Positions 52,886 through 63,255 of a stretch of DNA of 64,000 nucleotides are shown piece by piece. The stretch covers positions 62,001 through 126,000 of the forward strand of contig CAJXYP010000003.1 of assembly GCA_913063225.1 (NCBI GenBank). The letters run 5' to 3'. The stretch is from an uncultured Cellvibrionales bacterium (GTDB lineage: Bacteria > Pseudomonadota > Gammaproteobacteria > Pseudomonadales > GM7GCV1). Made by a program: the position numbers and the translations under genes. Under the pieces are notes generated by a model, which ran no database searches, was not told the DNA's origin, and was given only the letters and a program-made list of their open reading frames with translations. Positions within the stretch are counted from its first letter, which is position 1. Every line of letters begins with the position of its first letter.

Positions 52886-53656
52886 ATGCCTGTAACCCTT
52901 AAAACCCCGAATGAATATGAAAAGATGCGCGTTGCCGGCCGACTAGCCGCTGATGTGCTTGAGATGATCGCGCCCCATGTAGTTGCCGGTGTATCTACTG
53001 GTGAACTGGATCGCATCTGTCATAGCCATATTGTTGAAGCGCAGAAAGCGGTGCCCGCCCCCCTTAATTATCGCGGCTTTCCCAAATCAATCTGCACCTC
53101 CATCAATCAAGTGGTATGTCACGGAATCCCCGATGATAAACGTATATTGAAAAATGGCGACATCATCAATATAGATATCACTGTCATCAAAGATGGTTAC
53201 CACGGCGATACCAGTAATATGTTTTTTATTGGTGAAGCACCGGCGCACGCTAAACGACTTTGCGGTGTCGCTCAGGAATGCCTCTACAAAGCTATCGAGC
53301 TGGTAAAGCCGGGAGCTACCCTGGGAGATATTGGGCACGTAATCCAAAAGCACGCCGAGGCTAAATACTACTCAGTAGTCCGGGATTATTGCGGGCATGG
53401 CATTGGTCAGGTTTTCCATGAAGATCCGCAGGTATTGCATTACGGCAAAGCGGGCACCGGCTTGGTGCTAGAACAGGGCATGACCTTTACTATCGAGCCA
53501 ATGATCAACGCTGGGACGTATCGCACGCATCTCAAGCCCGACGAGTGGACTGTGGTGACCAAAGATGGGCGACTTTCTGCGCAATATGAACACACCATGG
53601 GCGTAACAGCTGATGGCGTGGAGGTATTCACTAAACGTTCTGACGAATCCCTATGA
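52886..53656 (+). CDS. map: Methionine aminopeptidase type I
   Basis: MRVAGRLAADVLEMIAPHVVAGVSTGELDRI; DYCGHGIGQVFHEDPQV. Start at internal Met. Confidence 0.97.
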   Translation: MPVTLKTPNEYEKMRVAGRLAADVLEMIAPHVVAGVSTGELDRICHSHIVEAQKAVPAPLNYRGFPKSICTSINQVVCHGIPDDKRILKNGDIINIDITVIKDGYHGDTSNMFFIGEAPAHAKRLCGVAQECLYKAIELVKPGATLGDIGHVIQKHAEAKYYSVVRDYCGHGIGQVFHEDPQVLHYGKAGTGLVLEQGMTFTIEPMINAGTYRTHLKPDEWTVVTKDGRLSAQYEHTMGVTADGVEVFTKRSDESL

Positions 53657-56361
53657 GCATGTTTGGTAAACAACAGCGCATAGTGCGCCCCGCCTTCGGT
53701 GAATTAAGTTTTTTTGCAGAAGATAGATTCGAAAAGGCATTACTTAACTGCGCGCCGAGCAAGCGCGTGGAGTTATTCCGGGCGACTCTAGACGCCGGTG
53801 ATGAGCATCTGTTTAACCGGTTTCGAGAAGGTGAAGACGTAATGCGCCTGACCATGGACCGGGCGAGATTTATAGACAGGCTGATTTTCTACGCCTGGTC
53901 AGAATTTAAATGGGACAAGAATATCGCACTACTGGCAGTTGGAGGATACGGCCGCTGTGAGATGCACCCACAATCTGATATCGATTTATTATTTTTAACC
54001 AAAAAAGATAATCACACCACCTATCGAGAGTCTATCCAGGGCTTTACCACTTTGCTCTGGGATATACAGCTTAAAGTTGGCCATAGTGTCCGTACGCCCA
54101 AACAATGCGCACAGGTAGCCAAGGCAGACGTTACCGTCCTAACCAACCTTATCGAAGCACGAACAATCCTAGGAGACGATGAGCTGCGATTGGAAATGGA
54201 ACGCCTAGTGGCGCCTGAAAAAATCTGGCCTGCTGACAAGTTCTACAAAGCTAAGGCGGAAGAGCAGCGCGTTCGATACGAACGACATGGCATTGTTGAA
54301 TACGACATGGAACCAAACGCTAAAGAATCCCCTGGCGGCTTACGTGACATTCAAACTATTCACTGGATTGCTAAGCGCATATACGGCGTGTCCAGCATTG
54401 AACAGTTGGCCGGCCGCGGCATCTATACCGAAGAGGAGTATGTAAGCCTTTCTGCCGCTCGGCGCTTCCTCTCTAGGGTTCGCTTTGGTCTTCACATGGT
54501 TACAGGTAAGCCTTTAGACCAGCTTCAGTTCGAACATCAGCGCATGCTGTCAGAATTATTCGGCTATAAAGATAATCCACGGCGCCTCGCTGTGGAGGTC
54601 TTTATGCAGGACTATTACCGAAGTGTTACGGTGATTCGAGAAGTGAATGATGTGCTGATGCAGGTTATGGTAGATCACCTTTACTCAGCCGAATCCAAAA
54701 AAATCAATGTAGTAAATGATCGCTTCCAAATTCGCGATGGCTACCTTGAAGCCCGTCGGGATTCAGTCTTCAAAGACAGCCCTTCGGCTCTATTAGAAAT
54801 ATTTGTCATTCTTTCCCGCGATAAAAAAATTCTGGGTATTCAGGCGTCGACCATTAGATTACTTCGAGAATACGGCTCTTTGATTAATGACAAATTTCGC
54901 GATCAGCAAGAAAATAAAACGCTTTTCTTAGAACTAATACGGTCTCCAGACCATCTCTCTGCTCCCCTACAAATGATGGCCAGATATGGGATTCTGGGAC
55001 GATACCTGCCAGAGTTTGGAGTTATCACTGGCCTACCCCAGCACGACCTATTTCATATATACCCAGTGGACGTGCACACGCTCAATGTGGTGCGCAATAT
55101 TCGCCACTTCGGTTTGCCCGGTAGCAGCCTGCACTCCCCCATATCAAGCTATATATACAGCACCCTAAGAAAGCCGGAACTCTTGATAATAGCCGGTCTA
55201 TATCATGACATAGCCAAAGGGCGCGGAGGCGACCACTCTGAATTGGGCGCTCACGATGTTAAGGATTTTGCTGAAAGGCACGGTTATAACGCTCGAGAAG
55301 TTAAGCTGATGATGTGGCTGGTTGAAAACCACCTGCTGATGTCGAGAATATCCCAGCGTGAAGACATTTCTGATCCTATTGTAATCAACCGGTTTGCCCG
55401 CCATGTTGGAGACGAAACCAATCTAAACCTGCTCTATGCGCTTACCGTGGCTGATATTAACGCAACCAACCCTGCACTATGGAGTAGCTGGCGAGCGTCG
55501 CTTATGCGCCAGCTATACATGGAAACGCGCAAAGCACTCCGGCTTGGTTTAGAAAATTCAGCCGACCAACAGGAAAGAATCCGCGAGGATCGAGAGGCAG
55601 CTCTGCAAATATTGGCCAAAAAAGGCATCTCGGAAGAAACCACTAAAAATATTTGGGCAGATTCAAGCGACGAGTATTTCCTGAAAGAATCCCCTGAAGA
55701 TATCGCCTGGCACACCGAGCTTGCTAGTCGTCATAAAAATCCCTCTGACCCTATCATTATTGTAAAGCCCTTTATATCCAACCGCCGTGAGCGGGCCACC
55801 ATGATCTTGGTTCGCGTCAAGCAGTCTGCAAATGTATTTGCTGCAGTTGCGGTAGCGATCGATCAGGCAGGCCTAAACATTCAAGATGCGCGCATTTACG
55901 ACAGCGGTGACGTTACGCTGAGTTGTTTTTATATACTCAATGAAGATTCTGAGCCTCTTGGCAAAGATTCTGAGAGAGTGGATAGACTTGAACGCTCTAT
56001 TCGCGAGGAGCTAAAAACCATTGATGACTATCATCAAGTACTTGGCACCCGCACTAAACGAGCGTTAAAACAATTTCCGGTACCCACCCAGGCGACGCTA
56101 TCCAAAGGGCAAAAGTACAGCATGCTCGAAGTGGTTACAGCTGACAGACCCGGGCTTCTAGCGGTTATTGGACAGATATTTGTGGAGTTCGATATTCAAC
56201 TGCACGGTGCGCGAATTGTCACGCTGGGAGAACGCGTAGAAGATTTCTTTATTGTATCCCTCGCCGATGGAACACCAATTTCAGATGTGAAACTCGGCAA
56301 GCAGCTCACGGATTCGATTTGTGAAACTATAGATCAGCGGGTTGAAGCTATTGCTTCATAA
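53653..56361 (+). CDS. glnD: [Protein-PII] uridylyltransferase
   Basis: 902 aa; GGYGRCEMHPQSDIDLLFL nucleotidyltransferase; HD region GLYHDIAKGRGGDHSELG; C-terminal ACT domains. Confidence 0.97.
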   Translation: MSMFGKQQRIVRPAFGELSFFAEDRFEKALLNCAPSKRVELFRATLDAGDEHLFNRFREGEDVMRLTMDRARFIDRLIFYAWSEFKWDKNIALLAVGGYGRCEMHPQSDIDLLFLTKKDNHTTYRESIQGFTTLLWDIQLKVGHSVRTPKQCAQVAKADVTVLTNLIEARTILGDDELRLEMERLVAPEKIWPADKFYKAKAEEQRVRYERHGIVEYDMEPNAKESPGGLRDIQTIHWIAKRIYGVSSIEQLAGRGIYTEEEYVSLSAARRFLSRVRFGLHMVTGKPLDQLQFEHQRMLSELFGYKDNPRRLAVEVFMQDYYRSVTVIREVNDVLMQVMVDHLYSAESKKINVVNDRFQIRDGYLEARRDSVFKDSPSALLEIFVILSRDKKILGIQASTIRLLREYGSLINDKFRDQQENKTLFLELIRSPDHLSAPLQMMARYGILGRYLPEFGVITGLPQHDLFHIYPVDVHTLNVVRNIRHFGLPGSSLHSPISSYIYSTLRKPELLIIAGLYHDIAKGRGGDHSELGAHDVKDFAERHGYNAREVKLMMWLVENHLLMSRISQREDISDPIVINRFARHVGDETNLNLLYALTVADINATNPALWSSWRASLMRQLYMETRKALRLGLENSADQQERIREDREAALQILAKKGISEETTKNIWADSSDEYFLKESPEDIAWHTELASRHKNPSDPIIIVKPFISNRRERATMILVRVKQSANVFAAVAVAIDQAGLNIQDARIYDSGDVTLSCFYILNEDSEPLGKDSERVDRLERSIREELKTIDDYHQVLGTRTKRALKQFPVPTQATLSKGQKYSMLEVVTADRPGLLAVIGQIFVEFDIQLHGARIVTLGERVEDFFIVSLADGTPISDVKLGKQLTDSICETIDQRVEAIAS

Positions 56362-56367
56362 ATAGAA

Positions 56368-57579
56368 ATGAATTCTCGTCTGGATTTATTACAGCCCTAC
56401 CCCTTTGCTCGCTTAAATACGCTACTAGCTAATTCCCAACCAAACCCAGACCTAGAGGTTATTACGCTCTCGATAGGAGAGCCTAAGCACCCGGCTCCAA
56501 CCGTGGCGCTGGAAGCGCTTCAAGGTGCACTGAACGAAGTACAAAAGTACCCGGCAACATCGGGAAAGTTTGGCCTTAAACAAGCCATCACTGATTGGAC
56601 AAATCAAAGATTTGAGCTATCCGAAAATAGCCTAAGCGCCGATTCCAACGTACTGCCGGTCAATGGCACGCGTGAAGCACTATTTGCTATTGCTCAAACT
56701 TTGACGGACCCAAATAAAAAAAACGGCACGGTGGGTATGCCAAACCCCTTTTATCAAATATACGAGGGAGCCGCTCTTTTAGCCGGTAAAACTCCGGTTT
56801 ACTTCAATAGTTTGACTAGCAAAAACATGCAGCCTGATTGGCGCCAAATTAGCGACGCTGAATGGCAGCAAATGGAACTGCTATATATATGCTCGCCGGG
56901 CAATCCTTCAGGCACATATATAGAACTCGAAGATATGTGCTATCTGATCGAACAATCGGATCTGCACGATTTTGTAATTGTTAGTGACGAGTGTTATTCC
57001 GAGTTGTATTTGGACGATTCACAAAAAGCACCTAGCATCTTGCAAGCTTGCAGTAAGCTGGGAAGAACTTGCTTTTCACGCTGCATCGCCTTTCACTCCC
57101 TATCAAAACGATCCAATCTTCCGGGATTGCGCTCCGGTTTTGCCGCCGGTGACGCAAAACTCCTCAAAGACTTTCTGCTCTATCGGACCTATCACGGATC
57201 TGCAATGCCAGGATTTGTGCAAGTGGCGAGCGAGCAAGCTTGGAAAGACGAAAACCACGCTGGAATAAACCGAGAACTTTATAGAGCCAAATACAAAGCC
57301 ATTCTGCCAAAACTGACAGATCATTTTGAGTTTACTGCACCAGAAGCGGCCTTTTATCTTTGGCTGGACACGCCTATTGATGATCAGGAATTCACTAGGC
57401 GGCTTTTCGAAGAGCAAAGTGTAAAGGTTGTGCCAGGCAGTTTATTGGCTCGAGACACCGAAACGGGTAACCCCGGTCAAAACCGCATTCGCATCGCCCT
57501 CGTCGCGCCGATAGATGAATGCATCGAGGCTATAGATCGACTAATCAGTTTCACCTCTTCATTGGTCACCAATGCGTAA
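56368..57579 (+). CDS. dapC: Succinyldiaminopimelate transaminase
   Basis: PYPFARLNTLLA; ITLSIGEPKHPAP; SLSKRSNLPGLRSGFAAGD; follows glnD. Confidence 0.9.
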   Translation: MNSRLDLLQPYPFARLNTLLANSQPNPDLEVITLSIGEPKHPAPTVALEALQGALNEVQKYPATSGKFGLKQAITDWTNQRFELSENSLSADSNVLPVNGTREALFAIAQTLTDPNKKNGTVGMPNPFYQIYEGAALLAGKTPVYFNSLTSKNMQPDWRQISDAEWQQMELLYICSPGNPSGTYIELEDMCYLIEQSDLHDFVIVSDECYSELYLDDSQKAPSILQACSKLGRTCFSRCIAFHSLSKRSNLPGLRSGFAAGDAKLLKDFLLYRTYHGSAMPGFVQVASEQAWKDENHAGINRELYRAKYKAILPKLTDHFEFTAPEAAFYLWLDTPIDDQEFTRRLFEEQSVKVVPGSLLARDTETGNPGQNRIRIALVAPIDECIEAIDRLISFTSSLVTNA

Positions 57580-58225
57580 GCTGGAACGAGTTCAGTATAT
57601 TAACCACAGGCTGGCAGAGCTTTACCCTGCCCCTCCAATACCCCTAAATCACTTTGATTCATTTAGCCTTCTAATCGCTGTTTTACTTTCAGCCCAATGC
57701 ACTGATGCTCGAGTCAACACAGTTACCCCGCAACTATTTGCCCTAGCCGACACACCGGAAAAAATGGCTAGGCAAAATGTGGATGATATTCGGGCAATAA
57801 TCCGTCCCTGTGGATTATCTCCGCAGAAGTCCAAAGCTATTCAAGGCCTATCTCAGATACTGGTAGATAAGCATGCTAGCGAAGTACCTGACAACTTTGA
57901 AGATTTAGAAAAACTTCCCGGAGTGGGCCACAAAACAGCTGGTGTTGTCATGGCTCAGGCCTTTAATCACGCTAGCTTCCCCGTGGACACCCATATTCAT
58001 CGCCTAGCCCAACGCTGGAAACTGACCAGTGGCCACAATGTTTCCACCACCGAAGCAGATCTGAAGCGGCTATTCCCCAAAGACCGGTGGAACAAATTAC
58101 ACCTACAAATCATCTATTATGCCCGCGAACACTGTCAGGCGCGCGCGTGTTTCGGCTTAGAATGCGATATTTGTCGGCAATGTTTCCCCGAACGCAAAAG
58201 AAAATTGGTTACTCATAAAGCCTAA
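57572..58225 (+). CDS. nth: Endonuclease III
   Basis: LPGVGHKTAGVVMAQAF (HhH-GPD); VDTHIHRLAQR; C-terminal 4Fe-4S cysteines. Confidence 0.96.
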   Translation: MRKLERVQYINHRLAELYPAPPIPLNHFDSFSLLIAVLLSAQCTDARVNTVTPQLFALADTPEKMARQNVDDIRAIIRPCGLSPQKSKAIQGLSQILVDKHASEVPDNFEDLEKLPGVGHKTAGVVMAQAFNHASFPVDTHIHRLAQRWKLTSGHNVSTTEADLKRLFPKDRWNKLHLQIIYYAREHCQARACFGLECDICRQCFPERKRKLVTHKA

Positions 58226-58249
58226 ACTTGTCTAAACCGACAACCTAAA

Positions 58250-58267
58250 TGTCAATATAAATTGACA
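58250..58267. promoter_or_regulatory. Perfect palindrome, candidate operator
   Basis: TGTCAAT-ataa-ATTGACA; includes consensus -35 TTGACA (58262-58267) upstream of the HTH-aminotransferase. Confidence 0.6.
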
Positions 58268-58277
58268 TATTAGAAAA

Positions 58278-58294
58278 TATGTACAAAATACATA
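58278..58294. promoter_or_regulatory. Second palindrome, candidate operator
   Basis: TATGTA-caaaa-TACATA perfect 6-bp arms in the expected -10/start region. Confidence 0.45.
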
Positions 58295-58320
58295 GAAATA
58301 TTCAGTCAAAATATAAACCT

Positions 58321-59733
58321 ATGCTGACACTCTCAGAAATATTGCCACACTTTGAAGGCAAAAAATCCCTGCTCGCCAAACACCTTGGCATAAGTCGCCA
58401 GGCCGTTTCCCGCTGGAAGCAAGAGGCACCCATACCTGAAAAGCATGAATTCAAACTTCGCCATCAGCTAATTGGCTGGGACGACAATTCAATGCTCGAA
58501 AAAAGTAAACCCAGATTGACACGAGATATCCATAGCTCTAGCAAGTTAAGTAATGTGAATTATGAAATTCGTGGTCCCGTACTTGAAGAAGCTTATAGGT
58601 TGGAAGAAGAAGGCCACCGAATAACGAAGCTTAATATTGGCAACCCCGGCGCGTTCGGGTTTCACGCTCCTGAGGAAATAATCCAAGATGTAATTTACAA
58701 CCTTAGTTCTGCGGAGGGCTACTGCGAATCCCGAGGACTCTTCCCCGCTCGAAAAGCGATAATGCAAGAATGTCAGTTACGCGGGATTCCCAATGTAGGC
58801 ATCAATGATATCTATATGGGTAACGGCGTCAGTGAGTTAATTCTGATGTCTCTGCAAGCCTTGCTAGAAAACGGTGATGAAATTCTTATTCCGGCACCTG
58901 ACTACCCTCTTTGGACCGCTTCTACCAGCTTGGCTGGGGGCCGCGCTGTTCATTATCTTTGTGATGAGAATCAGGATTGGGAACCGGACCTTGAAGACCT
59001 TGAGTCCAAGATAACCGATCGCACTCGAGGTATTGTTGTTATTAACCCTAACAACCCAACGGGAGCCGTATATAGCAAGGATACCTTGACCCGGATCGCG
59101 CGCATTGCAGAAAAACATAATCTTATTGTTTTTGCAGATGAGATATACGACAAAGTGTTGTACGACGGAGCTGTGCATACGCCCTTTTCTACCATTACAG
59201 AAGACTGCCTTGTAATTAGTTTTGGGGGCCTCTCTAAAAACTATCGACTAGCTGGGTTTCGTTCGGGCTGGCTGATTGTGAGCGGAGCCAAAGACAAGGC
59301 CAAAGACTATTTGGAAGGCATTAATATTCTGGCTTCAATGCGCCTCTGTGCCAATGTGCCAGGACAGCTTGCAGTGCAGACGGCTCTGGGAGGATACCAA
59401 AGCATTAACGATCTGGTTCTGCCTGGAGGTCGTCTTAAACAACAGCGCGACGTTGCATGGCAGGCTCTAAACGATATTCCTGGCGTGAGCTGCGTAAAGC
59501 CTAAAGGAGCGCTTTATCTATTCCCAAAAATTGATCCAAAAATGTATTCTGTTCCGGATGATGAGAAATTTGTTCTTGATTTGCTAAAAAGCAAACAGCT
59601 ACTTTTGGTGCAGGGCACGGCGTTTAATTGGCCGACACACGACCATTTGCGCATTGTTTTCCTTCAACCGCATGAAGAATTGCAAGTATCCATTGACAAA
59701 CTAGGCAGTTTCCTCAAAAAATACAGGTCTTAG
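58321..59733 (+). CDS. Cro-like HTH domain fused to AlaA-type class I aminotransferase
   Basis: N-term MLTLSEILPHFEGKKSLLAKHLGISRQAVSRWKQEAPIPEKHEFKLRHQLIGW, then YEIRGPVLEEAYRLEEEGHRITKLNIGNPGAFGFHAPEEI...VINPNNPTGAVYS...SFGGLSKNYRLAGFRSGWL. Track ORF begins at 58279. Confidence 0.87.
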   Translation: MLTLSEILPHFEGKKSLLAKHLGISRQAVSRWKQEAPIPEKHEFKLRHQLIGWDDNSMLEKSKPRLTRDIHSSSKLSNVNYEIRGPVLEEAYRLEEEGHRITKLNIGNPGAFGFHAPEEIIQDVIYNLSSAEGYCESRGLFPARKAIMQECQLRGIPNVGINDIYMGNGVSELILMSLQALLENGDEILIPAPDYPLWTASTSLAGGRAVHYLCDENQDWEPDLEDLESKITDRTRGIVVINPNNPTGAVYSKDTLTRIARIAEKHNLIVFADEIYDKVLYDGAVHTPFSTITEDCLVISFGGLSKNYRLAGFRSGWLIVSGAKDKAKDYLEGINILASMRLCANVPGQLAVQTALGGYQSINDLVLPGGRLKQQRDVAWQALNDIPGVSCVKPKGALYLFPKIDPKMYSVPDDEKFVLDLLKSKQLLLVQGTAFNWPTHDHLRIVFLQPHEELQVSIDKLGSFLKKYRS

Positions 59734-59793
59734 TACATCTAATAAGAAACACCGTTAATTGGTGTATTTGTATCTACACTTGGGGAAGAAAAG

Positions 59794-59961
59794 TTGAACA
59801 ACCAAAATAATAAGCAAGCGCACGGCATAAAAGAAGAAATTGATTTTCATGAAGCAGCGATAGTGAATGAAAAAGGGGACGAGATAGCTATTACGGAAGA
59901 AATGGTCCGAAGCGCAATACAAAAGCTAGACGAAGATACCGATCCAAAATCGGAAGGCTAG
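59794..59961 (+). CDS. Small conserved protein, PA1571-like (TTG start)
   Basis: Manual translation LNNQNNKQAHGIKEEIDFHEAAIVNEKGDEIAITEEMVRSAIQKLDEDTDPKSEG; purine-rich ggggaagaa upstream. Not in ORF track. Confidence 0.55.
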   Translation: MNNQNNKQAHGIKEEIDFHEAAIVNEKGDEIAITEEMVRSAIQKLDEDTDPKSEG

Positions 59962-59962
59962 T

Positions 59963-61030
59963 TTAAGACCTCAGAAAACCGAAGGCTTTTAATTCAGCGC
60001 TGTCAGAACAAAACTCTGATATCTCTGTTCGGTGGGCGTAGTTCTTACGCAGAAAATCAAAGCCCTCTCCGCCAGCACTTAGACTTGCGCGTAATACAGC
60101 GTCATCTCTGCGTGGGTCGTAGACTTCTAGCAAGGCTGAGTTCCAATTTTTATTTTCAATTTTGCTGAGATTTCCCGTTCGATCCATCTCGGGCTCAAAA
60201 GCTATATCGAAATACCTGAACAGTTCCTCAAAGACCATTTGACTGCCTCTAGATTTTGCTCCAGCCGAGTAACCAGCAATATGCGGCGTTGCAATTTCAC
60301 AAGCTTTCACAATTTCGGCATCTATTGAAGGCTCACCGGACCACACATCAAAAATCAGTCTGATATCCGGTCGATCATTCAACACCCGCTTTAGATCGTC
60401 TTCATTAATGACGCCACCTCTGCCCGCATTGATCACTAACGCTCCTTCAGGGAGCTGTATTAACTGGTCAAAGCCGAGCATGCCCTGGGTTGGATAGCGC
60501 CCTTCTTTCGTCAAAGGCGTGTGTAAGCAGATCACTTCTGAAGTAAGCACAGTATTCAAATCCGTAAGCTCTGGCTGCTGCTGACCTGTCAGAAAGGGGT
60601 CATAACACTGGCATTTGGCGTTCAGCACTTGCAAGGCTTGGTAAAGTAAACCGCCAACCTGGCCACAGCCAACAACTCCAAAATTACGCTCTCGCGGATC
60701 AAAATCAATCGCTGCCAGGCAACATAGTACATAGTCAACAACCGACTGAGCGTTGCTTCCCGCAGCATAGAAACATGGAATGCCCTTCGCTTTAAGATAG
60801 TCCATATCCAAGTGATCGATACCTGCTGTTGCACTGGCCACAAACCTTACCGAACTACCCTCTAATAAAGCCTCGTTTACTTGGATAACTGAACGTACTA
60901 GTAATGCATCTGCAGTGCCCAGGTCTTCAGGTTTTAGGCTACGACCAGAGACCCTAACAATCTCAACACCTGGCACATAAAAGCTGGAGGGGATTGGAAT
61001 GTTTTCATCGACAATAATAGTAGTGGTCAA
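59963..61030 (-). CDS. pdxB: Erythronate-4-phosphate dehydrogenase
   Basis: IIVDENIPIPSSFYVPGVEIVRVSGR; SATAGIDHLDMDYL; NFGVVGCGQVGGLLYQAL. Confidence 0.95.
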   Translation of the reverse strand: MTTTIIVDENIPIPSSFYVPGVEIVRVSGRSLKPEDLGTADALLVRSVIQVNEALLEGSSVRFVASATAGIDHLDMDYLKAKGIPCFYAAGSNAQSVVDYVLCCLAAIDFDPRERNFGVVGCGQVGGLLYQALQVLNAKCQCYDPFLTGQQQPELTDLNTVLTSEVICLHTPLTKEGRYPTQGMLGFDQLIQLPEGALVINAGRGGVINEDDLKRVLNDRPDIRLIFDVWSGEPSIDAEIVKACEIATPHIAGYSAGAKSRGSQMVFEELFRYFDIAFEPEMDRTGNLSKIENKNWNSALLEVYDPRRDDAVLRASLSAGGEGFDFLRKNYAHRTEISEFCSDSAELKAFGFLRS

Positions 61031-61569
61031 AACTGCATCTCGATAATTTTAGTAACGGGTATTAGTGACTCACCGCTCATTTTTTGCAAGGCACTAATAA
61101 ACTGATTTGCACGAGTAGGCTTGTTCTCGTCCAAATATTCAATGGCGCAATGCTTCATTTCTTCAACAAAGTAATGGGGCAATAAATCACTAGCTCCGCT
61201 CTGAAGATTCAAATTATCTACACTGGGAAGAAATGAAAGCCCTGCTGCCGACGAAAATATCCACTCCAACCCCTGCGGACGAGATTCCACCAGAAAAAAG
61301 GATTTTTGTTGCTCAGTATTTCGCCCGTCAGGAGCATACCAGTAACCATAGTCCAGCTGGTTTCGACGCGTTTGACCCGCAATACACCAATGAGCTACCT
61401 CGTGTAGGGCACTCTGGACGTAGTCGAACTTGTAGCCAATTTGGGCTGAGCTATCGACACTAGAAGGAGTGTATTCCGGCTCATCAAAACCACCTTGCAG
61501 GCAAGTATTATGGCTACCAGAAAAGCTAGCGTTAAAAATTTTCTCTACTTGAATACTAGTGAGTGCCAA
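61027..61569 (-). CDS. epmC: Elongation factor P hydroxylase-like (EpmC/YfcM)
   Basis: SALHEVAHWCIAGQTRRNQLDYGYWYAPDGRN; TTG start. Confidence 0.88.
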   Translation of the reverse strand: MALTSIQVEKIFNASFSGSHNTCLQGGFDEPEYTPSSVDSSAQIGYKFDYVQSALHEVAHWCIAGQTRRNQLDYGYWYAPDGRNTEQQKSFFLVESRPQGLEWIFSSAAGLSFLPSVDNLNLQSGASDLLPHYFVEEMKHCAIEYLDENKPTRANQFISALQKMSGESLIPVTKIIEMQF

Positions 61570-61735: not shown

Positions 61736-62434
61736 ATGGGCGCAACCCTTGACGTAGATTTTTCAAGTAACGTAGTTGATATTTTTTCGGGAGATACTTG
61801 GTCGGAGAAGCAGCAAAAACGCTTTATCAGATTAGCGCCAGAGATCGACGGTATGGAAATGCTCTATATCAACGAACAGAACCCGAACAAAATTTTCACC
61901 CTGAAAATCCTCTGCTGGGGCCTTCGAGAAAATGGTGAGATCGATGGTTTGGTTCCCTGGCTCGACAAGATAGTTCCCTGCACAGAGATAGATGATCCAC
62001 TTCAGGGTAGCTGGCAGGGATATTTTGATCCCGGCATCGAACAGATATATTTCGAACCACCGGAACATAAAATAGCCGAACTCGACGCCGCTGCGGAATA
62101 TTACCAATACGAATGTGACTCAGACGACGAGGTTGTTCAGGAAATTTCCGACAACATCGGCACACACGCAGTTTTATCCGGTGACGAATTCCAAAGTATC
62201 ACCCTCGCTGAGGTGGTTAGTTGGAGACTAAAAAACAACGGTGAGCTGAGTGCAATGCTAATCGACGAAAAATTAGTTGCCACCACACCTGTTCTGCCGG
62301 GAGATCCTTGCCTTTTTTGTGCAGATGAGCGCGGTGACTTTCAATATTACTTCCAACACCACATTGCAAACAAATTGAAAGAGAAGGATCCAGAGGCGAT
62401 AGCTGCCATTGCCAACCTTATGGACCGGGGCTAA
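61736..62434 (+). CDS. Uncharacterised acidic cytoplasmic protein
   Basis: 232-aa ORF, no signal peptide or TM; good upstream purine tract (cttaggagatactcATG). Confidence 0.75.
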   Translation: MGATLDVDFSSNVVDIFSGDTWSEKQQKRFIRLAPEIDGMEMLYINEQNPNKIFTLKILCWGLRENGEIDGLVPWLDKIVPCTEIDDPLQGSWQGYFDPGIEQIYFEPPEHKIAELDAAAEYYQYECDSDDEVVQEISDNIGTHAVLSGDEFQSITLAEVVSWRLKNNGELSAMLIDEKLVATTPVLPGDPCLFCADERGDFQYYFQHHIANKLKEKDPEAIAAIANLMDRG

Positions 62435-62721: not shown

Positions 62722-63255
62722 TTGTTTTTCGAGTACTGGATTGTGCAACAGCATTACATTATTTCCTATATCGGTGTCGATCGCCCTGGCCTTGTAGACC
62801 AGATTAGCCAAATTATTCACGAAATTGGTGGCAGTTGGCAATCCAGCCGGTCAGCCAACTTATCAGGTATGTTTAGCGGCATGGTTCATGTGAGCCTGGA
62901 CCAGAGCAATGAAGCATCTTTGAGCGAAGCAGTAAGCGATCTTCAATCTGAGTCAATGCAGATTTCTGTAACTCCGGTAAACGCCATCGGTAGCTCTCCA
63001 GAAGCCTTGCTTGAAGTAAAGGTTGTCGGGGCCGACCGAAAAGGCATAGTGCGGGAGGTGTCCAGCATACTATCGAGCCTGGGAATTAATCTGGAAGCGC
63101 TTGAGACCCAAGTAGCGCCAGCTCCCATGTCGGGCGAACCGACCTTCTCTGCCATAGCCGAAGTCTCTATTCCAAAAAATCTAGATATCGATCGCCTTCG
63201 GGATGCATTGGAGCAACTCTCCGACGACCTGATCGTTGAAATAAGAAAAATATAG
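62722..63255 (+). CDS. gcvR: Glycine cleavage system transcriptional repressor-like ACT protein
   Basis: Two ACT-like halves: YIISYIGVDRPGLVDQISQIIHEIGGSW and LLEVKVVGADRKGIVREVSSILSSLGINLEALETQVAPAPMSGEPTF. True start may be GTG 62743. Confidence 0.78.
   Translation: MFFEYWIVQQHYIISYIGVDRPGLVDQISQIIHEIGGSWQSSRSANLSGMFSGMVHVSLDQSNEASLSEAVSDLQSESMQISVTPVNAIGSSPEALLEVKVVGADRKGIVREVSSILSSLGINLEALETQVAPAPMSGEPTFSAIAEVSIPKNLDIDRLRDALEQLSDDLIVEIRKI

Follow-up and report, generated by a model that had tools for sequence, protein, structure and literature searches.

Enzymes with a DNA-binding domain of their own

NadR, PutA and BirA are active metabolic enzymes that carry a DNA-binding domain of their own and control their cognate genes, and their ligand logic is known. 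The MocR regulators, among which GabR and PdxR, consist of an N-terminal DNA-binding domain, a linker and a class I aminotransferase fold. The protein described here shares this order of parts, but where MocR proteins combine a GntR winged helix with an aminotransferase fold of the sensor type, it combines a Cro helix bundle with an orthodox AlaA. It belongs neither with the MocR proteins nor with NadR, PutA and BirA; it is proposed to work like the latter, with a different enzyme and different folds. CDD model PRK13355 presumably represents a helix-turn-helix (HTH) domain ahead of an AlaA/AlaT-type enzyme, annotated as 'bifunctional HTH/aminotransferase'; no NCBIfam model of this kind was found among the best matches of the fusion protein. 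The original prediction that the fusion is little characterised agrees with the open-access papers searched, in which neither published work on a Cro-AlaA fusion nor a function for it was found.

AlaA of E. coli (PDB 4cvq) is a dimer. Its N-terminal arm contributes to the dimer interface and closes like a plug over the substrate (PMC4094517). Unlike the fusion, this enzyme has no HTH domain; the Cro domain of the fusion is attached to the very arm that forms the plug in E. coli AlaA. P22 Cro (PDB 1rzs, Pfam PF14549) shares with the HTH domain of the fusion its fold, the HTH and an IPEK stretch. It differs in that the Cro of the fusion is joined to an enzyme, has its C-terminal part replaced by a linker and has no lysogeny switch nearby.

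The analysis of the window, i.e. the whole stretch of 64,000 nucleotides, makes it fairly probable that AlaA, once joined to a domesticated phage Cro, became a dimeric enzyme that represses its own gene, with transaminase activity retained. If true, aminotransferases would have evolved into transcription factors by a second path apart from MocR, here with an apparently preserved catalytic site. It would also be a clear example of how fusion to a housekeeping enzyme can domesticate a phage Cro protein. The features of the locus are collected in Table 1.

Table 1 Features of the HTH-alaA locus (positions in the window)
Feature	Position	Strand	Basis
HTH-AlaA fusion gene, 470 aa	58321..59733	+	ATG at 58321, stop at 59733; orthologs in 5/5 family genomes
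Cro-type HTH domain, residues 1-50	58321..58470	+	profile, sequence and fold matches
Linker, residues ~51-66	58471..58518	+	length and sequence differ between orthologs; low pLDDT
AlaA-type class I aminotransferase, residues ~67-470	58519..59730	+	homology to 4cvq, residue comparison
Codon of catalytic Lys306	59236..59238		
Perfect inverted repeat ATGTCAAT-ATAA-ATTGACAT, proposed operator	58249..58268	.	core in three congeners
Core of the repeat, GTCAAYN4RTTGAC	58251..58266		kept in 3/3 genomes of the window's genus
Promoter-like TTGACA-16-CAAAAT	58262..58289	+	10/12 matches; -35 box coincides with the palindrome's right half; weak -10
One-mismatch copy of the operator motif in the linker-coding region	58505..58520	.	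second site, weak hint

The two halves of the fusion protein

The open reading frame had been put forward as a HTH-aminotransferase fusion and is confirmed, with the boundaries and length predicted, as a real fusion of a Cro-fold HTH and AlaA. Translation initiation downstream of the HTH is unlikely, because all five orthologs begin with MLT- and, in codons 1-48, synonymous substitution is close to saturation whereas the protein changes little (pN 0.11-0.29 vs pS 0.71-0.99 among the family orthologs). The HTH domain is therefore under purifying selection, and on this, together with the presence of the fusion in five of five genomes, misassembly or a false start is rejected.

Profile and sequence searches, with Foldseek in addition for the HTH, led to P22 Cro for the HTH and, by homology, to AlaA for the aminotransferase half. 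The HTH domain has helices at residues 4-11, 15-22, 26-30 and 40-50 or longer, with residues 15-30 forming the HTH. The Pfam model P22_Cro matched the window protein with an E value of 8.8e-6 and 25.8 bits, slightly below the curated cut-off of 30.2 bits, which was exceeded by two family orthologs (G004 and G002, 34.5 and 32.9 bits). P22 Cro 1rzs was also the best PDB match by sequence (E 2.8e-4), and PHROG 409, a phage transcriptional regulator, matched the HTH with E 8e-10 (range 5e-9 to 7e-12). An AlphaFold model of residues 1-63 based on all five orthologs, with a pLDDT of 82 on average and about 90 in residues 1-40, displayed an HTH fold. Its best fold match in the PDB was again P22 Cro (TM 0.68-0.70, rmsd 1.5, probability 1.00, 39% identity), with a Foldseek E value of merely 0.046, and worse for the others, as expected given the shortness of the domain; N15 Cro and Xfaso 1 Cro were among the next matches. 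Of the Cro/DicC type originally assigned, Cro thus stands, whereas DicC is a weak match; P22 Cro is the proper comparison.

The closest relatives of this HTH are free-standing Cro-like genes divergent from phage-type repressors. The nearest is a 59-aa protein in genome G399, encoded divergently from a CI/S24-like repressor, with 49% identity and itself matching P22_Cro at E 8e-14; another close relative, a 64-aa protein in G072, is divergent from a similar repressor. Phage origin is the simplest reading of the domain. We infer that the fusion protein binds DNA.

Residues ~67-470 match E. coli AlaA 4cvq (E 8e-179) and PF00155, class I aminotransferase (E 6.6e-49), with 62.6% identity over 404 aa to AlaA of E. 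albertii (~63% to enterobacterial AlaA). The aminotransferase half was poorly predicted in a whole-protein AlphaFold model, for which the alignment was shallow, and homology to 4cvq was therefore used. The residues named in the E. coli AlaA structure paper (PMC4094517) were compared at a constant numbering offset of 66, and 20 of the 21 active-site and plug positions checked are identical, the sole difference being Ile213 of E. coli AlaA, which is Val279 in the fusion. Catalytic Lys240 corresponds to Lys306, within SFGGLSKNYR, and Asp207, Asn179, Tyr210, Tyr68* and Arg248 to D273, N245, Y276, Y134 and R314. Substrate-binding Arg378 is R444, the plug residues Tyr15/Ile17/Arg18 are Tyr81/Ile83/Arg84, Pro20 is the anchor Pro86, and Tyr129, Ser105 and Ser239 are likewise conserved. 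The earlier view of a full class I aminotransferase with an intact PLP-lysine context is borne out. As the checked catalytic residues are intact, the fused aminotransferase is probably active as a transaminase. It is the product of the sole AlaA-type gene of the genome; the next matches, the adjacent dapC included, show 23-28% identity.

No GntR domain was matched in the fusion protein up to E = 1. Membership of the MocR family is rejected on the absence of this winged-helix domain, though a class I aminotransferase-like C-terminal domain is present, and the combination first noticed, a Cro-like rather than GntR reader on a probably active AlaA-type enzyme, is upheld.

Distribution and gene neighbourhood

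The fusion was found in five of five genomes of the window's family, covering two genera; the named MAG L004 also has it, with the same sequence as G002. Outside the family, the AlaA matches listed for 295 genomes of the order lack the HTH; they begin around query residue 36-72. Searches with a profile of the HTH in ~290 other genomes of the order and in samples of 369 genomes of the class and 399 of the phylum revealed no further fusion, and in 14 stand-alone alaA genes whose open frames are long no HTH was recognised by eye. Restriction of the Cro-AlaA fusion to one lineage is well supported in the genomes sampled. Since only one bacterial family underwent the event and its neighbours have an unfused AlaA, a comparison of the states before and after fusion is possible.

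A Moraxellaceae MAG (L045:1776-3230, JAUSND010000016.1) encodes an AlaA with a different N-terminal extension of ~75 residues, FLADYPDLSATQFGTLFRKDPNFVGELKKGRSPRQATVDQLLADM. From reading of the sequence, this extension is possibly another small HTH and hence a second independent HTH-AlaA fusion; it had no profile match, PHROG included, and no extension like it was seen in 245 genomes of the order.

The gene order at 53653-61569 is glnD, dapC, nth and HTH-alaA, followed by the convergent genes pdxB, a vitamin B6 gene, and epmC. In relatives nth lies directly upstream of the fusion and pdxB downstream where the contig extends (~3.5 kb further in G001), whereas the stand-alone AlaA relatives examined have other neighbourhoods, e.g. 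msrB- and htpX-like genes in L045. Between HTH-alaA and pdxB lies a small open reading frame (59794-59961, 55 aa, TTG start) with no confident family match, and between epmC and a double-ACT protein (62722-63255) one of 232 aa (61736-62434) with no Pfam match. Four of the five family genomes, that of the window among them, have Lrp/AsnC-type genes, and the idea that the fusion replaces a lost Lrp is not supported.

The promoter palindrome and the role of the fusion

In each of the three genomes of the genus, a perfect palindrome is found 55-72 bp upstream of the start codon, where it overlaps a -35-like box, TTGACA; it reads ATGTCAATATAAATTGACAT in the window, GTCAATTTATATTGAC in G003 and GTCAACTTTAGTTGAC in G004. 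It is the best-conserved block in an otherwise diverged intergenic alignment, and in G004 both halves are altered together by a symmetrical T/A to C/G change. The three congeneric genomes (6.4 Mb) contain four exact copies of the core motif, three upstream of the fusion gene and the fourth within a transporter-like open reading frame. The motif was not found upstream of any of 78 stand-alone alaA genes with up to one mismatch allowed, and the copy in G002 is within a long open reading frame. Shuffling gave p values of 0.01, 0.24 and 0.04 per genome, individually just modestly unlikely, and the case for the palindrome rests on co-location, symmetry-preserving change and near-uniqueness. Of the regulator-enzyme idea that had been raised for the protein, self-regulation is the part favoured, as a promoter palindrome nearly unique to the gene suggests.

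It is proposed that the ancestor of the family acquired a Cro domain from a phage, which became fused to the N-terminal arm of the sole AlaA-type alanine aminotransferase, and that the resulting protein would have retained transaminase activity. Held as a dimer by its aminotransferase half, the protein would offer two HTH domains to the palindrome in its own promoter; occupying the -35 box there, it would repress transcription of the fusion gene, a repression that we infer. Active-site occupancy or the PLP/PMP state possibly tunes DNA binding via the arm. Such ligand control is speculative; its rationale is that the arm and plug, which become ordered upon substrate binding in E. coli AlaA, are the direct attachment point of the HTH. 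The full version, a one-protein feedback device in which substrate- or PLP-dependent ordering of the arm is relayed to the Cro domain, so that an active enzyme would report its catalytic state to its promoter, is a tentative possibility. The model makes it possible to test whether an arm known to close over substrate also acts on DNA binding.

The HTH could instead be purely structural, stabilising the enzyme, or a relic, the palindrome being the site of another regulator or a plain promoter. The sister genus (G001 and G002) has the fusion without a clear palindrome upstream of the gene, which is the main gap in the case for an operator, and the palindrome's right half also serves as -35 box and may have been kept for that reason alone; about one promoter-like site of this quality is expected by chance in the stretch. 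The palindrome could also be owned by another regulator. Against this reading, the five orthologs, although diverged, share an unchanged HTH core (ISRQAVS and W32) and IPEKHE stretch, and the non-promoter half of the palindrome is conserved too, with matched changes; it is considered unlikely.

Still less probable is a pathway regulator, a fused AlaA that would control several distant genes, e.g. alanine, nitrogen or PLP genes such as pdxB, in the manner of PutA or NadR. The proximity of glnD, dapC and pdxB, the latter kept downstream in relatives whose contigs extend there, fits this. However, the only exact motif copies of the three congeners outside open reading frames precede the fusion gene itself, and pdxB is convergent, with no site near its start within the window. 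A wider regulon was rejected, as one-mismatch copies (9, 14 and 11) were at or below the counts for a reversed control pattern (15, 16 and 13), with no excess.

A catalytically dead sensor, in which the aminotransferase fold would serve only to govern the HTH through bound PLP and amino acid, as it does in the MocR regulators GabR and PdxR (PMC5320631), is highly improbable for a GntR-free protein that is the only AlaA of its genome and is so similar to a working enzyme in overall identity and in the catalytic and substrate residues checked.

Besides the proposed operator, one-mismatch copies of its motif are present in the linker-coding region at +185 in the window gene and at +216 in G004, where one arises in 1.9% and 1.0% of synonymous shufflings; this test was post hoc, and the copies are non-homologous in position (different codons) and occur in two of the three genomes, with none in G003. 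A second inverted repeat, ACATATT-AGAA-AATATGT (58265-58282), overlaps the end of the proposed operator and is seen in the window only.
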